From an uncultured Bacteroidales bacterium (lineage in GTDB: Bacteria; Bacteroidota; Bacteroidia; Bacteroidales; UBA932), in contig CAMXAU010000003.1 of the NCBI GenBank assembly GCA_947179325.1, forward strand, positions 86,402-150,401: a stretch of DNA of 64,000 nucleotides, given 5' to 3'. A program made the position numbers and the translations under genes. Positions 42,199-52,879 of the stretch are shown here, piece by piece. The notes under the pieces were generated by a model that searched no databases, was not told the DNA's origin, and saw nothing but the letters and a program-made list of their open reading frames with translations. Position 1 is the first letter of the stretch. Each line of letters opens with the position of its first letter.

Positions 42199-42229
42199 CT
42201 CCGGAGCATGCGTGAATGCAGCTCCGGAG
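42199..42229 (-). terminator. intrinsic terminator of PUL-2 operon
   Basis: Minus strand: CTCCGGAGC/GCTCCGGAG perfect 9-bp stem followed by TTTTTGTG, ~30 bp after the GH18 stop codon. Confidence 0.8.
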
Positions 42230-42257: not shown

Positions 42258-43844
42258 TTATTCCCAGTCTTTGACAAGCCAGTCATAAGCACCTTGTGTC
42301 TCCGGATAAGATTCTGCATTAAAATTGACATTATACATTTTGCTTCCTCCTGTTTCAAAAATATCCGGCATAATGCGCGACGCAAACACACCTACCAGGT
42401 CAGCATATCTTCCTTCCTCAGAACCCTGATGATTTGAAATCAGGTCTCCATAAACAATAATATTGCTTTTCATAAAGCCAGCCTGCTTCCATACAAAAGG
42501 ATTAACCGTAGTAGAAAAATAAGAGTCAAACGATTCTTCCATAAGTGATGAATAGTAAGCGGCAATGGAAATGCATCCATATCTGTCTTGCGAAAGACCC
42601 GCAATAGGTTTTCTTGTGTATTTTGTAAATGGAAAAGAGGCCGATGCTCCAAAAGACATTAAAGCAAGTTCATTCTGCTCAGCTACTTTAGGAGAGTTAT
42701 AGTCAACAATTTCCCACGGGTCAAGTATCTGGAGCTGTTCGTTCCTTTCCATATATCCAGACCATGCATAGTCTATATGTTCCCCGACTTTGATTCCTCC
42801 TGTTGCTTCTGTATCATAAAAATATGCAGTCGGCTCACCGTAGTCTGCAAGGGTCACGAGCTTGCCAGGAAGTGCTGCCCTCATCTTCTGTATAAGCTTA
42901 GGATAAGAGGTCGTGTTCATTGCCGGAAGACCGTTGGACTCAGCCTGCTCGTATGCGGCTCCTTTATCAAAGAAATTGACGCCGTCAAGGTCATTGTCAT
43001 AGACCACCTTCCTTACCTGCGCGACAAAGTCATCTATCTGCGCATCTGTAAGGTTGCAGAAACCAAGGCCGGTTGCCCCTCCTTCGAGAGTAAGGCAGAC
43101 CTTACGTCCCTGGTCCTGAAGAGGAAGAATGTACTTGGTCCTGTTGGCAAGTACATGTTCCATATCTTTACCAAGCACAAGTTCTGCACGGCCTCCGTTA
43201 TTCTTCAGTACGACGGTACGCAAATTTACTATATTAGAATACAAGTAATTTATTTCATCAAGCGTTTCAATACTCATCTCTGTCAGAAACAACGCATCAG
43301 CAATCAATGGCTGATAATCATTAGTATTGACATAGCACACGAAATTATAATCAGGATGGAATCCGTATGCAGATATCTGCGGCGTCCTCACCGTAACCCG
43401 GAACTCAAGCGGATCTGACGCCTTGGTCTCGTCCTCCGCGACCTCCGCCAGCACAAGAGTATAGTCGCCCGCCTGCAGGCCGGATGCCTTAAATGTCAAA
43501 GCAGAGAGAGAGGACCTGTCCTCACCTGCCGCAACTTCCAGTGTGCCGGAATATTCATAGTTGGCCTCAGGAAGAGTGGTCGCAGAGGCATCCACAGCCA
43601 CAGTGATTGTGCGTCCTTCTTCGAGTTCCTTGTCTGCAAGATAATAGATATAAAGATCCCTTGTCTCATCTGTGCCCTCCCTGAGGGTTACGGAAGTGCG
43701 GTTGTCCTCAGCAACAAGGCTTCCCGGTATATATTCAGGAGTCACCGGTTTTCCATTGCCGTTGTCCTCCGGGACGTCCGGCCTGCATGAGGCAAAAAGC
43801 AATGCCGATGCAGCCAATAATGTCAATAATGATTTTGTCTTCAT
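42258..43844 (-). CDS. BT_3987-type N-terminal domain (DUF1735-like) plus GH18-fold lipoprotein; probable pseudoenzyme
   Basis: Lipobox 'LLFASCR'; GH18 strand-4 region reads 'DLDGVNFFDKGAAYEQ', without the expected Glu. Confidence 0.8.
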   Translation of the reverse strand: MKTKSLLTLLAASALLFASCRPDVPEDNGNGKPVTPEYIPGSLVAEDNRTSVTLREGTDETRDLYIYYLADKELEEGRTITVAVDASATTLPEANYEYSGTLEVAAGEDRSSLSALTFKASGLQAGDYTLVLAEVAEDETKASDPLEFRVTVRTPQISAYGFHPDYNFVCYVNTNDYQPLIADALFLTEMSIETLDEINYLYSNIVNLRTVVLKNNGGRAELVLGKDMEHVLANRTKYILPLQDQGRKVCLTLEGGATGLGFCNLTDAQIDDFVAQVRKVVYDNDLDGVNFFDKGAAYEQAESNGLPAMNTTSYPKLIQKMRAALPGKLVTLADYGEPTAYFYDTEATGGIKVGEHIDYAWSGYMERNEQLQILDPWEIVDYNSPKVAEQNELALMSFGASASFPFTKYTRKPIAGLSQDRYGCISIAAYYSSLMEESFDSYFSTTVNPFVWKQAGFMKSNIIVYGDLISNHQGSEEGRYADLVGVFASRIMPDIFETGGSKMYNVNFNAESYPETQGAYDWLVKDWE

Positions 43845-43878
43845 CTTGTTTTGGTTTTAATTGTTAACTATGTAGTTA

Positions 43879-45258
43879 TTATTCATTTTCATATATTTTA
43901 GGAATCTCGATTCCGGCCGGCCAGACAAGGTCGGTTTCCGATATGCCGTCATTGTGGTATCTCGAATAGTCTTTCACGACATTCCCCTTGCCGTCATCGA
44001 ATTTCCAGTAGCCTATCAGCTCCGGACAGGACTCCGGGTCTGCAATCTCATAAATGTTGTCATATATCTCCTGCTCTGTACGGGCTACCGACCATACACG
44101 TGCCTCCGATATCTTTCCCATCAACGGACGGTATTCATTGTAGGAGCGGCCGATGAAAAACTGGTAGGCTTCGTTCAAGCCGCCGTACTGGGCCTCATAT
44201 TGCGGTTTCTGGTCTTCAGGAAGATTGGCATAGAAGTCATAGTATGCCCTGTCGGCGAGGTTGATGACACTTCCTTCTTTAGGCGGTGTCCCGTCTGATT
44301 CGCTCTGAAGCCTGCCGTCCACATAAACACGGGCCTTAAGGGTCTCATAGTCGTATGTGGCAGCTATGTGGTACCAGCGTCCAGTCTCGAGATTCTTCTT
44401 TGCATCGGACTTCGGCATTTTCCCGAATCCTACGGAAGCACCTGAGCCGTCGAACTGTATCTGCTTGCGCTCAAAGCTGACATCACCGATACGGAGGAGC
44501 AGATACTGTTCCTTGCCCATGATTGTGGAAATGTTCACATCCTGGTGCTGCCCGCTTTCGGATGTCATGGAAGAAAGGAAGTCATCGATGTATATGAGGG
44601 CCTCGTATGTCACGGCCTTAAGGTTATTGAAGACCAAGGCGTTTTCCGTGTATTTGTCAAGGGTCGGGAAATTGATCCAGTTGCCAGCCCCGAGCTGGGC
44701 GGCTACGGTGATGTTGGACGAGCGTTTCACGACATAATATGCTACAGAGGATGATTCAAGCAGATCCACCGTGGAGGATGTGATACGCACAGGCACAAGA
44801 TAGTCGGTATCAAGAGGCAATGCGCCTTCCTGCCTGTCCCCTGTCCCCATCAGATTCTTGAGGTGAAGGTTTGCCGTGCCGGAGGTAATCTTGCCTGCCG
44901 GTATAATGAACTCGCCTCCGCTGAAGTCGAAATATTCAGCGGCAAGCAGCGGCAGCGATGTACCGTAGCGGCGGTTGTAGGCCTCGGCACCGGCCGGGTC
45001 GACCTCAATGGTGACCGTGACATCCCTGTCCTCCGGATATGCAAGGACGGCATTCAGTTCATAGTCCACCGACGGGAGCACTTTCCCGAAAGAGGCAGGC
45101 TGGACCGCACGGGTCTGCGAGACGTTCAGATAGGCGACGTTGCCGAAGACACGGGCGTCTTCAGTATTTTTGCGGCAGGACACGCATAATGCAGTGGCTG
45201 CCAATGTAATCAATAATGTAGTTTTTATGTTCTGTTTCATACTTTCCGGGATTTTCAT
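43879..45258 (-). CDS. DUF1735 plus LamG/concanavalin-like lipoprotein (surface glycan-binding candidate)
   Basis: 'VDYELNAVLAYPEDRDVTVTIEVDPAGAEAYNRRYGTSLPLLAAEYF' (DUF1735-like); 'GRWYHIAATYDYETLKARVYVDGRL' (LamG-like). Confidence 0.8.
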   Translation of the reverse strand: MKIPESMKQNIKTTLLITLAATALCVSCRKNTEDARVFGNVAYLNVSQTRAVQPASFGKVLPSVDYELNAVLAYPEDRDVTVTIEVDPAGAEAYNRRYGTSLPLLAAEYFDFSGGEFIIPAGKITSGTANLHLKNLMGTGDRQEGALPLDTDYLVPVRITSSTVDLLESSSVAYYVVKRSSNITVAAQLGAGNWINFPTLDKYTENALVFNNLKAVTYEALIYIDDFLSSMTSESGQHQDVNISTIMGKEQYLLLRIGDVSFERKQIQFDGSGASVGFGKMPKSDAKKNLETGRWYHIAATYDYETLKARVYVDGRLQSESDGTPPKEGSVINLADRAYYDFYANLPEDQKPQYEAQYGGLNEAYQFFIGRSYNEYRPLMGKISEARVWSVARTEQEIYDNIYEIADPESCPELIGYWKFDDGKGNVVKDYSRYHNDGISETDLVWPAGIEIPKIYENE

Positions 45259-45278
45259 GATTGTTCCCCAAACCGTAA

Positions 45279-46184
45279 TCAGCGGTTCAGCATCTGTATG
45301 GCGGCACGAAGCTGAAGGTAGTTGCCGTCGGGAGAGTAATAGTCATCTTCCACATTATATACAGCAAGCCCCGCGTACTGGCCTGACGAAAGCAGGAGCT
45401 CTGCCATCTGCCCCACAGCATCAGCCTCTTTGCCATTGTCAAGGATGAATGTCCCTACGCTTGCGGTGAGAAGAAGCTTTTTCGCAAGGATGCCGGAACC
45501 GACGGCAGAAGAAGCCATTGTGGCAATCGTGCCTGTACGCTGTATGCCCTCGGTATCAAGGACTGTATAGTCCAGCTTCCTGCGGTCTTTCTCCGTGACG
45601 AACTGCGGGTTTCCCTCGAAGACAAGCAGCTGTGCCGCGTCCTTGGCGGAATTCAGTTTGTCGAATATCAAGGCTGCGGCATCCTGCGAGACTTTGTCTC
45701 CCCATTTATATATGCCGGTGAAGGACCAGCCGTCAAGGCCGTATCTGGCCACAGCTACAATAGCCTCGTCCAGGGCAGCTTCCAATGCGGCCATGTCGGC
45801 AAATTCCCCTGAGCGGGATGCATAGTCGAACTGGTAGAGTACGCGTATGCCCTTTTCTTTCATCAGAGGCAGATCCGCAACATCGTTCTGAGAGATGTTC
45901 TGCGAATTTGCAAGGGAGACGATGTCCACCGAGTCGGCAATGCACCGGAGGGAATATTTTTCGCTGCTGAATGATTCCGGGGAATTTTTAAGCCTTACAT
46001 ATATGATATTGTGAGGAGTCGTGCGGTATTCACGGAGGGCAGCCGTATATTCAGCCCAGGCATCGGGGTCTTTTTCCCACGGATGCACGCCTGGAAATTC
46101 AACAGGTCTCGGTTCTGTCCATTCGGAGCACGAGGCTGATAGCATAAAGGGCAAGATCAGGAGTAGTATGTATTTTATTTTCAT
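45279..46184 (-). CDS. GH18-fold lipoprotein lacking catalytic acids (pseudoenzyme/SGBP)
   Basis: Lipobox 'LSASCSEW'; motif position reads 'YGLDGWSFTGIYK' instead of DGxDxDxE-type. Confidence 0.75.
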   Translation of the reverse strand: MKIKYILLLILPFMLSASCSEWTEPRPVEFPGVHPWEKDPDAWAEYTAALREYRTTPHNIIYVRLKNSPESFSSEKYSLRCIADSVDIVSLANSQNISQNDVADLPLMKEKGIRVLYQFDYASRSGEFADMAALEAALDEAIVAVARYGLDGWSFTGIYKWGDKVSQDAAALIFDKLNSAKDAAQLLVFEGNPQFVTEKDRRKLDYTVLDTEGIQRTGTIATMASSAVGSGILAKKLLLTASVGTFILDNGKEADAVGQMAELLLSSGQYAGLAVYNVEDDYYSPDGNYLQLRAAIQMLNR

Positions 46185-46196
46185 AGCATCAGTATT

Positions 46197-47783
46197 TTAT
46201 TTTTTACAGTCCCACCAGAGGTGTGTTCCCATTTTGTCCCCGCTGAAGCCACCTGCAGAGATTTCAGAATCAAGGAGCGTTATGGCATGTTCAAGATTGG
46301 CACGGTTGAGCTGATATTCCTCTACAGGATACGGAAGCCTGCGTGCACCTTCGGCAAGATCAACCGTACTGTTGCTTTTGTCATACTGAGACGGATGCGG
46401 CATCAGCTTAGGGTAGCCTGTCCTGCGGTACTCTGACCAGGCCTCGACTCCGAGAGGGAAAATCGCAATCCATTTCTGTGTGATGATACGTTCAAGATTA
46501 CGTTCGAAGTTGCCGTTTTCCCATGCGATTGTGACGGAAGTCATCTGGTCCTGATACGGGTGCACCTCCCCATGCCCTGAATAAGGCTCGCGTACACTCT
46601 GTGAATCAGCGATATAGTCATCCGCACCGCTGGCACCCTTCTCCTCAAACGACAGCCTGATTCCTTGTTCGTAGAATTTTCTGGCTTCATCATCCGTTCC
46701 CCATCTGAGTTCATATTCAGCCATCAGAAACGACACTTCCGCAGCCGTCATCCACGTATATGGGGTATCAGATGTCACTTTCATGTTGGAATGTCCGGAA
46801 ACTGCGCTGCCCTTGGACGCCACATCTATGCCGATACGTATTCCACGGTATAGAGTCAACTCCTCGCCGGAAACTATGGCCGTGATCTGTGTGAACATAT
46901 TCTCCCGTCTGGGATCACCGTATCCGTTCATGTAGCAGATGATGTCGGCCCCGACGCGGTGGTCAGCCCAGTCATTGTATATGAGCGTAGTGCGGTTCTC
47001 TGCCGCATGCATCGCCGCATTGTCAGCATTTGAAAGTATGACTCCAGCGGCAATTGCCTCAGCCGCCTTCTGGCGCGAAAAGTCCGGCATTACGTAGCTC
47101 AGGCGCATTGCCATTCTCAGTTTCAGCGAGTTGGCATATTTCACCCATTGGGAGATATTGCCATAATAAACAGCATCATACTTGCTCCATGCGTCATTTC
47201 CCAAGTACACGTTGTCACACAGGGCATCTATGGCAGCATCCAGTTCTCCGAACATTTTCATATAGACCTGCTCCTGACTGTCATAACCGACATATATTTC
47301 ATCACTCTGTTCAAGCTGTGAATAAGGTATAGGACCGTATGAGTCAGTCACCCTGTGCATTATGGCAACCTTCATCAGTTTTGCAAGAGCGATGGCCACT
47401 GGGTCGTCAGTTCCGTTCACGACGTCCCTGTACGGGGAATAGGTCTCGGTGAGGACATTGGCAAAAGGCCATTTTCTCCAGTCCGCCGAAGGGTTGTAAG
47501 TTTCAAATTTTGTAGCCCAAGTGTCAACTGTAGCACCGATATAGCCGGCAAAAGGTCCTCCTGTCAGGCTTTCGTTGAATTGGTACATGTGCTCCTGGAC
47601 AGGGATTACAAGCCCCTGAAGTGCCTTTATATTCGAGCCTGTCTTGTAGTTCTTGGCCTGCATCTGGCTGTCGGTGACTTCGTTGGGGTTCTTGTTGATG
47701 TCGTAGAAGAGGGCCGTGCATGAAGTCATGGACAGAGCCACCGCCAGACATGGGATGATATTGCTTATATTGTTGTATTTCAT
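46197..47783 (-). CDS. SusD/RagB-like (SusD-like_2 type) lipoprotein
   Basis: 'LAVALSMTSCTALFYDINKNPNEVTDSQ', 'YANSLKLRMAMRLSYV', 'WIAIFPLGVEAWSEYRRTGYP'. Confidence 0.9.
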   Translation of the reverse strand: MKYNNISNIIPCLAVALSMTSCTALFYDINKNPNEVTDSQMQAKNYKTGSNIKALQGLVIPVQEHMYQFNESLTGGPFAGYIGATVDTWATKFETYNPSADWRKWPFANVLTETYSPYRDVVNGTDDPVAIALAKLMKVAIMHRVTDSYGPIPYSQLEQSDEIYVGYDSQEQVYMKMFGELDAAIDALCDNVYLGNDAWSKYDAVYYGNISQWVKYANSLKLRMAMRLSYVMPDFSRQKAAEAIAAGVILSNADNAAMHAAENRTTLIYNDWADHRVGADIICYMNGYGDPRRENMFTQITAIVSGEELTLYRGIRIGIDVASKGSAVSGHSNMKVTSDTPYTWMTAAEVSFLMAEYELRWGTDDEARKFYEQGIRLSFEEKGASGADDYIADSQSVREPYSGHGEVHPYQDQMTSVTIAWENGNFERNLERIITQKWIAIFPLGVEAWSEYRRTGYPKLMPHPSQYDKSNSTVDLAEGARRLPYPVEEYQLNRANLEHAITLLDSEISAGGFSGDKMGTHLWWDCKK

Positions 47784-47794
47784 AACAATGCAGT

Positions 47795-50700
47795 TTAGAA
47801 GTCAAGTTTTATGTTCAGGCCGAGGCTCCTTGTGGAGGGCATCATGAAATAGTCTATTCCCTGGTAGTTCAGCCCAGTTGAAGCGACTGCCTCCGGGTCG
47901 AAAGGAGCCTTGCACCATATCATCCATAGGTTGCGTCCGACAAAGGACAGAGTAAGCCCCATCTTATCCCTGAACCATTTGCGCGGAAAGGTGTAGCCGA
48001 GCGAGAGTTCAGAAAGACGGAAGTTTGTTGCAGAATAGGTGTAGTATTGCGGAAGGCCGCTCTGGGCACCTACCGTCTGATACCATTTCTGCGGATCTGC
48101 CATGACGCGTCCGTTCACAAGCACTCCGCCTGCGTCACGTGCAGCAGCCGAGGCCTCTGAAACGCCATAGAGGTCAAGATTTGCCTGTGTGGCCGAGTAG
48201 CAAATCCCTCCGATACGTCCGCTGAAGAGTATTCCGAGATGGACTCCGGCATAGCTGAATCCGTTGCGCCATGCAAGGTTGTATTTCGGGAAAACACTGC
48301 CAAGATACATATCCTCGCCGTCGTCAATGACGACCACTCCGCCTCCGTTGTCCACTTCCACATATCCCATATCATTGGTCTTGAGGGCTGAAGAGGTATA
48401 CAGGTCACCGAGTGTGCCGCCTTTTTTAAGGATGTATTTCGCACGTCCAAGTCCCTTTATGTCAAGTTTGTCGATATTGAGCGGTTTTCCTGTAACCGGA
48501 TTGAGCACGTTGTCTGCAAGATCAATGATTTCGTTCCTGTTCCAGGAGAAGGTGAAACCTGTATCCCATCCGAATCCGCCCCAATTGTATGAATATCCGG
48601 CAGAGGCCTCTATTCCTATGTTGCGGACATGGCCGGTCTGGAGGTATATCGTCGAATATGAGGAGGACGGAGGCAGCTGGGGGTCAAAGGTTTGGTTGAA
48701 TGTATCTGCCCAGTACCACGAAAGATTGAGGTTCAGGCTCTTCCACAGGGTTGCATCTGCTCCCAGCTCGTATGTAACGGTGCGCTCCGGCTTAAGTTCG
48801 CCTATCGGATAGTGCGTTTTTGTCTGCCAGACCTTGTTTGTGGCATCATACGAATATGTAGGGACGGTCAGGTAGCGCGGGAATGGCGTGCCGACTGAGG
48901 CGACCGAGCCTCTTATCTTGAGATATGACAATGCGCTGCCCATGTTCCACAGTGACGTAGGCACCCATGACAGGCCGACGGAAGGGTAGAAAAAGCTTTT
49001 GCGCGGAGAGCCGGCAAGCTGTGAGGCCCAGTCATTCCTGCCAGTCACGGTAAGATACAGCATTGATTTCCATCCGATTTCAACACTTGCAAAAATTGAC
49101 TGCGACTGTTCGCGCCAACCGTCTTTTGACGCACGTTTCTTGATGTCGTCAAGGTCAAAGACGTTGAATATGTTCGGCAGTCCTTCTTCACGGATAGGGC
49201 CGGTATAACTCAGTGCATCTGAGGATATGTCATTGAATGATGCGCCGATATGTGCATTGAGAGAGAGTCCGTCCCAGTTCTTGCTTATATTGGCCATGAG
49301 GTCGGCGTATGTCTGCGAGTCGTATGTGCGCGTCTCGCCATACCATCCGTTCTTGCCTCCGTCCGTGACCGTTGTATTGGATGAGGCATATAGTTTCTGT
49401 GTGTAGAGTGTGTTGGAGTTGTCTATGCGGACACGTCCGGAGACCTTCAGCCAGTCAAGTATCTCATAGCTCGCGCTCAATGAGAGCATGTAGCGTTTCT
49501 TGTCGTTGTTGCGCAGATTACGGTAGGCTATCCAATATGGGTTCTGCATACGGAGGTCTCCGCCTTCAAGGTCTGAACTCCAAAACTGCTCCATAAGCTT
49601 TGTGCTGGAGTTATAGCGTTCGAATATACTGTAGTTCACGAATTCCTCGCCACGAGGAAAGAGGTAGGCCGGCACAAGCGGGTTGGAATATACTCCCTGA
49701 TTTGTCATGTTCTGGTCATGCTGCCAGATATAGCTCGCGCTTGCGTCTATGCAGAGTCTGTCTTTCAAGAACCAGCTGGTGTTCCTGAATGTGAAGTTAT
49801 ATCTGTCGTAGGTGTTGTTCGGGACAAGCCCGTCAGAGTTGACAGCCGCGGCCGAGAAGTATGTCTGGTTCTTGTCTGTACCTCCGGAAAGTGAGAATGA
49901 GTTGGTGTAGACATGGCCTGTCCTCAGGAAATCCTTTGGAGTGTAGCCGGACAAGGCTTCTGTGGCGCGCCCCGGTCCCCAGCTGTATACGTTGGAGGCA
50001 CTTTCCTTGCCGCCGCTTCCGGTTCCGTAGCGGTTCTGGAAACGCGGCAGCACGAACGGTGAAAGAAATTCAGTATTGCTGCCGAATGTAACCTTAAGTT
50101 TGCCTTCCTGTCCCTTTTTGGTTGTAATCATGACGGCACCGTTAGCGGCTTCCGATCCGTAGAGGGCTGCGGCGGCCGCACCTGTAAGGACAGAAATGGT
50201 TTCTATGTCATCCGGATTGATGTCAGCGATTGATTCTGTAGCTCCCTTGGAGTCGAATTCCGTTCCGCCTCCTCCCCCGAAGTTGTACATAGGTATGCCG
50301 TCAATTACGTAGAGGGCATTGGATGACTGTGATATGGATTTGTTTCCCCGGAGTATTACCTTGGCTGCACCTCCGACTCCTGAGGAGGAGGCGTTGATGT
50401 TGACTCCGGCGACTTTTCCGTTGAGCGAGTTGATGAAGTTTGCGTCGCGGACAGCCGTTACAGCCTCGGAACTGACTTGCTGGACATTGTAGCTGAGGGC
50501 CTTTTCGTCCCTGCGTATGCCGAGGGCGGTTACGACTGTACCTTCGAGCGCAACGGAAGCTTCGTTGAGCACGATGTCGAAGACTGTCCTTTTGCCTACC
50601 GGCATGGTGAGCGATTCATATCCGAGGCAGTTGACCTCTATTGCACTGTCCGGAGACAGGAGAGTCAGGAAAAATCTGCCGTCCAGGTCCGTGACTGTAC

Positions 50701-51118
50701 CGTTGGATGTCCCGGATTCCAGGACTGCGGCTCCTGGCACAGGCTGTCCGGCTGCGTCTTTAAGTGTGCCGCGGATACTGACCGGGGCCGGCTTTGCCGG
50801 CTCCATGAAGATGAAAATGGTGTTTCTGTCAATGCGCCATCCGATGCCAAGCGGCCTGAAGAGCCTGTCAAGGGCCGATTTTATCGGCACTGCAGAGACA
50901 TTGATGCTGACTTTACGGCCAGTATCATGTACATCCTGGTTGACAAAGAGGTAGTTTGTCTGTTCCTGGATGGCATCCATCGCTTGTCTCAGGGGTACGT
51001 TGCTGAGGTCGAGAGTGACCGGCTCAGGCTGCTGTGCGGCAGAATATGCCGGCAGGAAAGAGCCTTGACAGAACGCAGCCATGAGACAGGCAACGCATAA
51101 TTTTGTCAGTTTTGTCAT
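47795..51118 (-). CDS. SusC/RagA TonB-dependent transporter with N-terminal STN signalling domain
   Basis: STN-like 'LDLSNVPLRQAMDAIQEQTNYLFVNQDVHDTGRKVSINVSAVPIKSALDRLF', then carboxypeptidase-like domain and plug. Confidence 0.95.
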   Translation of the reverse strand: MTKLTKLCVACLMAAFCQGSFLPAYSAAQQPEPVTLDLSNVPLRQAMDAIQEQTNYLFVNQDVHDTGRKVSINVSAVPIKSALDRLFRPLGIGWRIDRNTIFIFMEPAKPAPVSIRGTLKDAAGQPVPGAAVLESGTSNGTVTDLDGRFFLTLLSPDSAIEVNCLGYESLTMPVGKRTVFDIVLNEASVALEGTVVTALGIRRDEKALSYNVQQVSSEAVTAVRDANFINSLNGKVAGVNINASSSGVGGAAKVILRGNKSISQSSNALYVIDGIPMYNFGGGGGTEFDSKGATESIADINPDDIETISVLTGAAAAALYGSEAANGAVMITTKKGQEGKLKVTFGSNTEFLSPFVLPRFQNRYGTGSGGKESASNVYSWGPGRATEALSGYTPKDFLRTGHVYTNSFSLSGGTDKNQTYFSAAAVNSDGLVPNNTYDRYNFTFRNTSWFLKDRLCIDASASYIWQHDQNMTNQGVYSNPLVPAYLFPRGEEFVNYSIFERYNSSTKLMEQFWSSDLEGGDLRMQNPYWIAYRNLRNNDKKRYMLSLSASYEILDWLKVSGRVRIDNSNTLYTQKLYASSNTTVTDGGKNGWYGETRTYDSQTYADLMANISKNWDGLSLNAHIGASFNDISSDALSYTGPIREEGLPNIFNVFDLDDIKKRASKDGWREQSQSIFASVEIGWKSMLYLTVTGRNDWASQLAGSPRKSFFYPSVGLSWVPTSLWNMGSALSYLKIRGSVASVGTPFPRYLTVPTYSYDATNKVWQTKTHYPIGELKPERTVTYELGADATLWKSLNLNLSWYWADTFNQTFDPQLPPSSSYSTIYLQTGHVRNIGIEASAGYSYNWGGFGWDTGFTFSWNRNEIIDLADNVLNPVTGKPLNIDKLDIKGLGRAKYILKKGGTLGDLYTSSALKTNDMGYVEVDNGGGVVVIDDGEDMYLGSVFPKYNLAWRNGFSYAGVHLGILFSGRIGGICYSATQANLDLYGVSEASAAARDAGGVLVNGRVMADPQKWYQTVGAQSGLPQYYTYSATNFRLSELSLGYTFPRKWFRDKMGLTLSFVGRNLWMIWCKAPFDPEAVASTGLNYQGIDYFMMPSTRSLGLNIKLDF

Positions 51119-51183: not shown

Positions 51184-52128
51184 CTATCTTATAATGATTA
51201 CATTATCTTTAGGATTCCTGACATAGGTGAAGTCAGATACCTGCTGCAATGTGTGAAGGGCGTTTTCTACGCCGTCAGAAATGCGTACCTGGCCGCTCAG
51301 GACGTTGATTTCCGGAAGGATGTCGCGTTCAATGATAATCTTGACATTGAACGACCTCTCGAATACGGCCATCATTTCGTCAAACGGCATTTTTCTTATA
51401 TGTATATTCCCTTTTGTCCAGCAGAGGTCAGTGAGGTCGTCCGTCTGCGTCTTCTGAAGACGGTCTCCGACAAGGGTAACGACGTCATTCGGAAGCATTG
51501 TGAGAGTCTCCTGCGGATTGATGCGGCTCGTGACCTTGACTTTTCCTTTGAGGAGAGTCGCTGAAAAGATGTTGTGCTGCTGGTCGGCAACCACATTGAA
51601 TTTTGTTCCCAAGACCTGGATATCAGAAGCAAAGGTTTCCACGATGAATGGCCTTTCCGGGTCGCCTGTGACGTCGAACATAGCTTCTCCTGTGAGTCTG
51701 ACAGTCCTTGTGCCGGAGCTGAAGGCCTGAGGGTATTGAAGTGAGCTTCCTGAGTTGAGCTGAACTGATGTGCCGTCCGGAAGGGTAATGAGCATCTGCT
51801 GTCCGATTGAGGCGACGGTGCTCATCTGTCCGTCTGCGGAATTGCCGGACATTGTGCGTCCTATGTATCCTCCGGCCAGTGCGATTGCGATTGATGCAGC
51901 TATTCCGGCTGACCAGCGCAGCAGCTTCCTGCTGAACGGTACCGGCGCTGAATTCTCCTTTGCGGTTCCTGGCGCAGGGGCATAGAGGGCCATTCCGGCA
52001 AACATGAGATGGGCCTTGTCGAATTCTCTGCGGTTGTCGGGGCTGCTTTCAAGCCATGCGAGTATTTCCTCTTCTTCGGACCATGTGGTGTCTCCCCTGA
52101 AATATCTGAATAAAAGTTCCTGTGTCAT
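51184..52128 (-). CDS. FecR-family anti-sigma factor
   Basis: 'LITLPDGTSVQLNSGSSLQYP', 'RTVRLTGEAMFDVTGDPERPFIVETFASDIQVLGTKFNV'. Confidence 0.95.
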   Translation of the reverse strand: MTQELLFRYFRGDTTWSEEEEILAWLESSPDNRREFDKAHLMFAGMALYAPAPGTAKENSAPVPFSRKLLRWSAGIAASIAIALAGGYIGRTMSGNSADGQMSTVASIGQQMLITLPDGTSVQLNSGSSLQYPQAFSSGTRTVRLTGEAMFDVTGDPERPFIVETFASDIQVLGTKFNVVADQQHNIFSATLLKGKVKVTSRINPQETLTMLPNDVVTLVGDRLQKTQTDDLTDLCWTKGNIHIRKMPFDEMMAVFERSFNVKIIIERDILPEINVLSGQVRISDGVENALHTLQQVSDFTYVRNPKDNVIIIR

Positions 52129-52264
52129 AATATGTCCTGTAATTACAATCTTCCGGCAATCAGGCTGTCTTCAAATGAATCCGGAATGCGACTTTAATAT
52201 ATAGTCGTTTATGAAAGGAATGTTTACCCCCTGTTTTTACATTTTTTTTGAATTTTTATTTCCA

Positions 52265-52272
52265 TATCTTTG
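52265..52272 (+). promoter_or_regulatory. putative -7 box TATCTTTG of the ECF sigma gene
   Basis: TATCTTTG fits TAnnTTTG; 22 nt before the inferred ATG at 52295. The upstream TTTG box spacing (~14) is non-ideal. Confidence 0.4.
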
Positions 52273-52294
52273 CGGTCTGCAAACAGATCCCGAT

Positions 52295-52879
52295 ATGCCG
52301 CATACAATAATAGATGCAAAAAAGTTCGACAGTCTGTATTCTGAATACAGGCCAAGATTTGTTGTTATAGCCAATTCGTATGTCCGCGACTATTCGTTGG
52401 CTGAAGATCTTGTTGCAGACAGTTTCATGCACTTCTGGGAAAGCCGCTCAGATATAGACCTGAGTTCCGGAAACATTCCTTCATATATCCTGGGCATCGT
52501 GCGCCACAAATGCATTGACGCTTTGAGAAGGCAGCAGCTCCAGCTGAGTACGCAGGAGAAATTGTACAGGCACAACCTGAGGAACATTCAGGCAAATCTT
52601 GATTCACTGGAGGAGTGCGACCTTGCAAAAATGCTGTTCAGAAAGGAGGTGGAGAATATTTTCCGCAAGCGCATGAATGAGATTCCATCTCTGTCCGCAC
52701 AGATTTTCATGTCCAGCCGTTTTGATGGACTGACCTATCAGGAGATAGCTCAGAAGCACGATGTTTCCGTGCGTAAGGTAACCCGTGAAATCCAGCGGTG
52801 CCTAAAGCTTCTCCGCGAAGACCTCGGAGAGTATCTTCCGGTGTTCATGCTGTTGTTTCCGGGGCTTTTTGAAATTTAG
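52295..52879 (+). CDS. RNA polymerase ECF-type sigma factor (start inferred at MPHTIIDAKK)
   Basis: Sigma-70 region 2 'YVRDYSLAEDLVADSFMHFWESR', region 4 'FDGLTYQEIAQKHDVSVRKVTREIQRCLKLLREDL'. Confidence 0.93.
   Translation: MPHTIIDAKKFDSLYSEYRPRFVVIANSYVRDYSLAEDLVADSFMHFWESRSDIDLSSGNIPSYILGIVRHKCIDALRRQQLQLSTQEKLYRHNLRNIQANLDSLEECDLAKMLFRKEVENIFRKRMNEIPSLSAQIFMSSRFDGLTYQEIAQKHDVSVRKVTREIQRCLKLLREDLGEYLPVFMLLFPGLFEI

Follow-up and report, generated by a model that had tools for sequence, protein, structure and literature searches.

A PUL16-type operon with two GH18-fold proteins

The window analysed here is a 64,000-nucleotide stretch (G000:C3:86402-150401) of the 3.1 Mb draft genome of an Alistipes-like Bacteroidales bacterium from the gut; in the tree of GH18-like proteins described below, the nearest relatives of its GH18-like protein are, besides one Bacteroidales sister, from Alistipes. 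The operon under study and its flank comprise the following features, with E-values in brackets:

52211..52879 (+), ECF sigma factor, the divergently oriented operon regulator (Pfam Sigma70_r2 4.3e-14, Sigma70_r4_2 8.2e-10)
51184..52128 (-), FecR-type anti-sigma factor (Pfam FecR 8.5e-18, FecR_C 1.5e-10)
47795..51118 (-), STN-containing SusC-like TonB-dependent transporter (Pfam Plug, CarbopepD_reg_2, STN)
46197..47783 (-), SusD-like lipoprotein (Pfam SusD-like 1.6e-160)
45279..46184 (-), BT1282-like GH18-fold pseudoenzyme of PF16141, lipoprotein-type, 301 aa (3.6e-29)
45708..45737 (-), its strand-4 motif LDGWSFTGIY, with Thr156/Ile158 at the GH18 Asp/Glu positions
43879..45258 (-), DUF1735 (BT_3987-like_N) and LamG lipoprotein, probably a surface glycan-binding protein (PF08522 2e-18, PF13385 1.5e-15)
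42258..43844 (-), BT1284-like GH18-like pseudoenzyme with an N-terminal beta domain and a TIM barrel, lipoprotein-type, 528 aa (PDB 8W01 3.4e-30)
42960..42989 (-), its strand-4 motif LDGVNFFDKG, with Phe292/Lys294 at EndoH D130/E132
42199..42229 (-), intrinsic terminator, a stem followed by TTTTT at the operon end (fold -24.5 kcal/mol, z -5.4)
beyond the terminator, an M20-type peptidase gene and pyrF, both identified by eye from their sequences

The Pfam searches bear out the architecture of ECF sigma factor, FecR, STN-SusC, SusD and DUF1735/LamG that a preliminary description had assigned to the locus. With the ECF/FecR pair, SusC, SusD, a PF16141 pseudoenzyme, a LamG protein and a BT1284-like protein all present, the operon is of the Bacteroides thetaiotaomicron PUL16 type (BT1282/BT1284/BT1285-type), with the endoglycosidase absent.

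Sequence and fold searches agree on the identity of the two GH18-fold proteins. For the 42258-43844 protein, the best PDB match and first-ranked Foldseek hit is 8W01, the GH18-like protein of B. faecium (E 3.4e-30), followed by BT3987 and BT1285, and the loss of both catalytic acids through non-conservative substitutions places it in the BT1284-like class. The 45279-46184 protein is closest to BT1282, deposited in the PDB as ‘GH18-like’ (8UWQ; E 1e-25, Foldseek rank 1, TM 0.80/0.86), and scores 102.5 bits against PF16141 (BT1044-like), well above the gathering cutoff of 28.7. A literature search found no paper on the function of BT1282.

The kind of pseudoenzyme seen here is thus already known. 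According to the published work, both catalytic acids are missing from BT1284, which has 85 homologous sequences in at least 20 species; BT1284 itself and the B. faecium orthologue (8W01) are catalytically impaired and inactive on high-mannose and complex N-glycans, and Alistipes finegoldii possesses a PUL16 analogue that includes an active BT1285-like enzyme (PMC11180146). PUL16 resembles the window operon in its ECF/anti-sigma pair, SusC, SusD and catalytically dead GH18-like protein (PMC11180146), and the BT1282-like PF16141 protein and the LamG protein are likewise present in the PUL16-type loci compared here. The degenerate pair is nothing out of the ordinary; it is the normal state of a PUL16-type operon, as published for B. 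thetaiotaomicron PUL16.

Both GH18-fold proteins have lost the catalytic acids

Both open reading frames and their previously described motifs (DLDGVNFFDKGAAY in the 42258-43844 protein and LDGWSFTGIYK in the 45279-46184 protein) are present, and neither LDGVNFFDKG nor LDGWSFTGIY fits the DGxxxDxE strand-4 signature of active GH18 endoglycosidases. BT1285, EndoF1 and EndoH align across the motif of the first protein, placing Phe292 and Lys294 at EndoH D130 and E132. Alignments and structural models agree with the original observation that neither protein has the catalytic glutamate, the acid position being occupied by Lys294 in one and Ile158 in the other; the catalytic aspartate is also replaced, by Phe292 and Thr156, respectively. 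In the AlphaFold predictions (pLDDT 86.5 for the 42258-43844 protein from a 40-sequence alignment; 90.3 for the 45279-46184 protein from 36 sequences), the first motif falls on strand 288-291 and the second on strand 152-157, in both cases strand 4, with the non-acidic catalytic positions at or just past the strand end. Chance would not give such a pattern: every aligned BT1284-like sequence (40/40) has an aromatic residue in place of the Asp, seven of them having kept Glu at the acid position, and none of the 36 aligned BT1282-like sequences has an acidic residue at its Asp position. The GH18 Asp/Glu mechanism is unavailable to either protein.

Compared with the B. faecium protein (8W01, 8W04), the 42258-43844 protein has the same DUF1735-type N-terminal domain, TIM barrel and degenerate catalytic site, at 22% identity in the Foldseek alignment to 8W01; in 8W01 the acid position is still Glu (VNLYDE), against Lys in the window protein. 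The 45279-46184 protein shares with BT1282 (8UWQ; 28% identity) the PF16141 fold devoid of the Asp/Glu pair. Both window proteins have N-termini of putative lipoprotein type, with a hydrophobic stretch read by eye and a cysteine, Cys20 in the BT1284-like protein (at least 90% conserved) and Cys19 in the BT1282-like protein (invariant in 36 sequences). The dead family also conserves, to at least 90%, two further cysteines of the 42258-43844 protein, Cys250 (KVC) and Cys263 (GFCN), of which 8W01 retains only the first; a disulfide or another shared role is possible.

The degenerate state is old and conserved

A scan of GTDB genomes yielded 45 loci of the BT1284-like type. Motif counts among them are partly by construction, because one of the two BT1284-like search patterns contained the degenerate motif; the same substitution was found in four loci outside that pattern (IDGVN, FDGVN twice and LDGIS; L050, L069, L081 and L085). 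Of the 45 loci, most that are long enough to show it keep the gene order ECF, FecR, SusC, SusD, PF16141 pseudoenzyme, LamG protein and GH18 pseudoenzyme, and the PF16141 partner is degenerate in every locus where its motif is readable. In a 71-row GH18 tree built with the motif masked, a single branch (100/100 support) separates 42 dead from 29 intact rows, and Nei-Gojobori estimates of dN/dS in close pairs are about 0.09-0.27 for both dead genes, comparable to those of SusC and SusD. Judged from these comparisons, both genes are under purifying selection, and the loss of the catalytic acids is ancient and conserved and does not represent decay.

Two minor features emerged from the same loci. 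A second, divergent type of degenerate GH18 (LDGVALNDKG) is present on the minus strand at L052:12343-14028 and L058:9933-11618, its operon running convergently towards the BT1284-like operon, and in L087 and L088 the SusC gene lies in two frames, reflecting a frameshift, an assembly error or a real split.

The neighbouring endoglycosidase is absent

The preliminary description had read the locus as a binding and import operon without a hydrolase, and the lack of a hydrolase holds: the operon contains no other hydrolase, and the terminator directly follows its last gene. This terminator, revealed as a stem-loop by folding and missing from a consensus terminator scan, occupies the position at which the BT1285-like gene comes next in related loci. 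PUL16 has a BT1285-type active endoglycosidase, whereas the window operon stops at the terminator and carries none. A relic of BT1285 beyond the last gene was also considered and rejected, as the intergenic DNA shows no trace of one in three frames. When the whole source genome was queried with a BT1285-like sequence, the only clear matches were the dead protein of the window and a BT3987-like protein on contig C20, and no BT1285 orthologue was found; a gene could have been missed elsewhere, since the assembly is 93% complete.

This arrangement is common among the relatives. An intact GH18 lies within 3 kb in 14 of the 34 loci with a readable flank (two of these neighbours, in L079 and L082, being short or truncated), whereas the other 20, each with 2.5 kb of flank or more, have none; the remaining 11 of the 45 loci are cut by a contig end and fall outside this count. 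The tree requires 8 or more switches between presence and absence of the intact neighbour, and in two genomes of the same genus (G119 and G172) the dead protein adjoins an intact BT1285-like gene. No replacement hydrolase turned up where the enzyme is lacking: the downstream genes sampled there encode mainly DUF4988 surface proteins, the others being a single fimbrillin-like protein, a regulator and an aldose epimerase. Separately, L051:12417-14495 holds a 693-aa frame with two GH18 stretches (LDGVSFDDEY and LNGITFDDEY) beside another intact GH18.

Candidate endoglycosidases elsewhere in the genome

GH20 and GH3 are exo-acting families, and the GH20/GH3 set of a second locus (PUL-1), put forward initially as a source of cleavage, is for that reason a poor fit. 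The proposed genome-wide search for another endoglycosidase returned no GH85 but did return a GH18 with both catalytic acids, the BT3987-like protein on contig C20, in which Asp and Glu are kept (LDGFFLDEEY); this DUF1735-GH18 protein matches BT3987 with E 1.5e-37. It belongs to a parallel operon (L098, C20:10000-29000) encoding FecR, a 1131-aa frame at the SusC position and SusD-type, PF16141 and LamG-type proteins, the PF16141 partner here being degenerate as well (FDGVIASFTG). Behind the LamG-type gene come the DUF1735-GH18 gene and, after it, genes encoding BACON/LamG, CotH and GH130 proteins, and the contig also carries five GH92 genes. BT3987 and PUL72 resemble the window operon in their DUF1735 and GH18 architecture and in the logic of high-mannose N-glycan uptake; BT3987 is, in contrast, an active enzyme, and its counterpart in the source genome is the C20 locus and not the window operon.

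The source genome has twelve matches to PF16141 (BT1044-like) in 3.1 Mb, of which at least nine, with the contig C12 protein left out, have an intact DxE (for example YDGIDFDYE and CGIDIDYEP), a repertoire that suggests broad use of N-glycans or related glycans. An endoglycosidase-type GH18 with an intact motif is encoded elsewhere in 14 of the 18 genomes that have an enzyme-less module, the source genome being one of the 14; the loci examined in the drafts G582, G589, G591 and G598 yielded no intact enzyme. From their motifs, the C20 protein and the other intact-motif enzymes are predicted to be active.

A likely role in uptake, with cleavage in trans

Taken together, the window encodes a PUL16-type uptake operon without an endoglycosidase, in which the dead pair probably act as non-enzymatic surface proteins while endo-cleavage takes place in trans. 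Uptake here combined with cleavage elsewhere is the likely model because the genome encodes an intact-motif BT3987-like endoglycosidase near GH92 and GH130. The pair would hold N-glycan-derived or glycopeptide ligands or hand them over to SusCD, and cleavage would be performed by an endoglycosidase encoded elsewhere, with the C20 protein as the best candidate, or alternatively by neighbouring bacteria. Of the ‘capture-only’ island proposed originally, the operon without a hydrolase stands, but glycan capture had been assumed, and BT1284, the nearest relative with assay data, did not measurably bind high-mannose RNase B or IgG in surface plasmon resonance (SPR; PMC11180146). Because of this negative result, and because N-glycans fit the B. 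faecium GH18-like structure poorly (PMC11180146), glycan binding is not established for the BT1284 family.

The same result leaves room for a scaffold role: the pair might serve the SusCD surface complex as scaffold or gate, or their ligand might be something other than an N-glycan (a peptide part, or a chitin- or peptidoglycan-type sugar). The strongly conserved pseudo-active face (GRKVC..G.GFCN, DYAWSGY, SYPKLI) signals function with the ligand unspecified and, like the SPR data, is in line with this explanation. Yet in B. thetaiotaomicron and A. finegoldii operons of this type come with high-mannose endoglycosidases, and endoglycosidase-type GH18 genes lie beside 14 of the loci, an association that points to N-glycan use, and we regard a pair without N-glycan binding as unlikely.

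Residual hydrolysis by one or both proteins through relocated catalytic residues is very improbable: a conserved pocket persists in the GH18 barrels, and seven of the 40 family members retain the acid-position Glu, but the window protein has Lys there and Phe at the Asp position, and BT1284 and the B. faecium protein are inactive on high-mannose and complex N-glycans (PMC11180146). The loss of catalytic residues might in principle mark decaying relics of active enzymes, but the full-length frames, the single old branch and the SusC/SusD-like dN/dS contradict this explanation, and we reject it as barely credible.

Three points go beyond the published BT1284 result: the dead state sits on one old branch, the operon's other GH18-fold protein has lost its catalytic acids in parallel, and the majority of readable loci lack an adjacent endoglycosidase. 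The ligand question of these conserved pseudoenzymes thereby becomes directly testable. The pseudoenzyme kind was described in B. thetaiotaomicron, and the twist is that the adjoining active enzyme is absent here and in many relatives, with a likely substitute encoded elsewhere in the source genome. A GH18 annotation in such loci should not be taken as enzyme activity. More tentatively, the BT1282/BT1284-like pair could be a self-contained receptor module of Bacteroidales, in which endoglycosidase barrels have been turned into binders on SusCD, repeatedly parted from a co-encoded endoglycosidase and adapted to glycopeptides or other products that come from enzymes of other loci or from other species. 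Chitinase-like lectins of the YKL-40/Ym1 type are non-catalytic GH18 barrels that serve as binding proteins; they belong to the animal chitinase branch, and their fold similarity is only distant.
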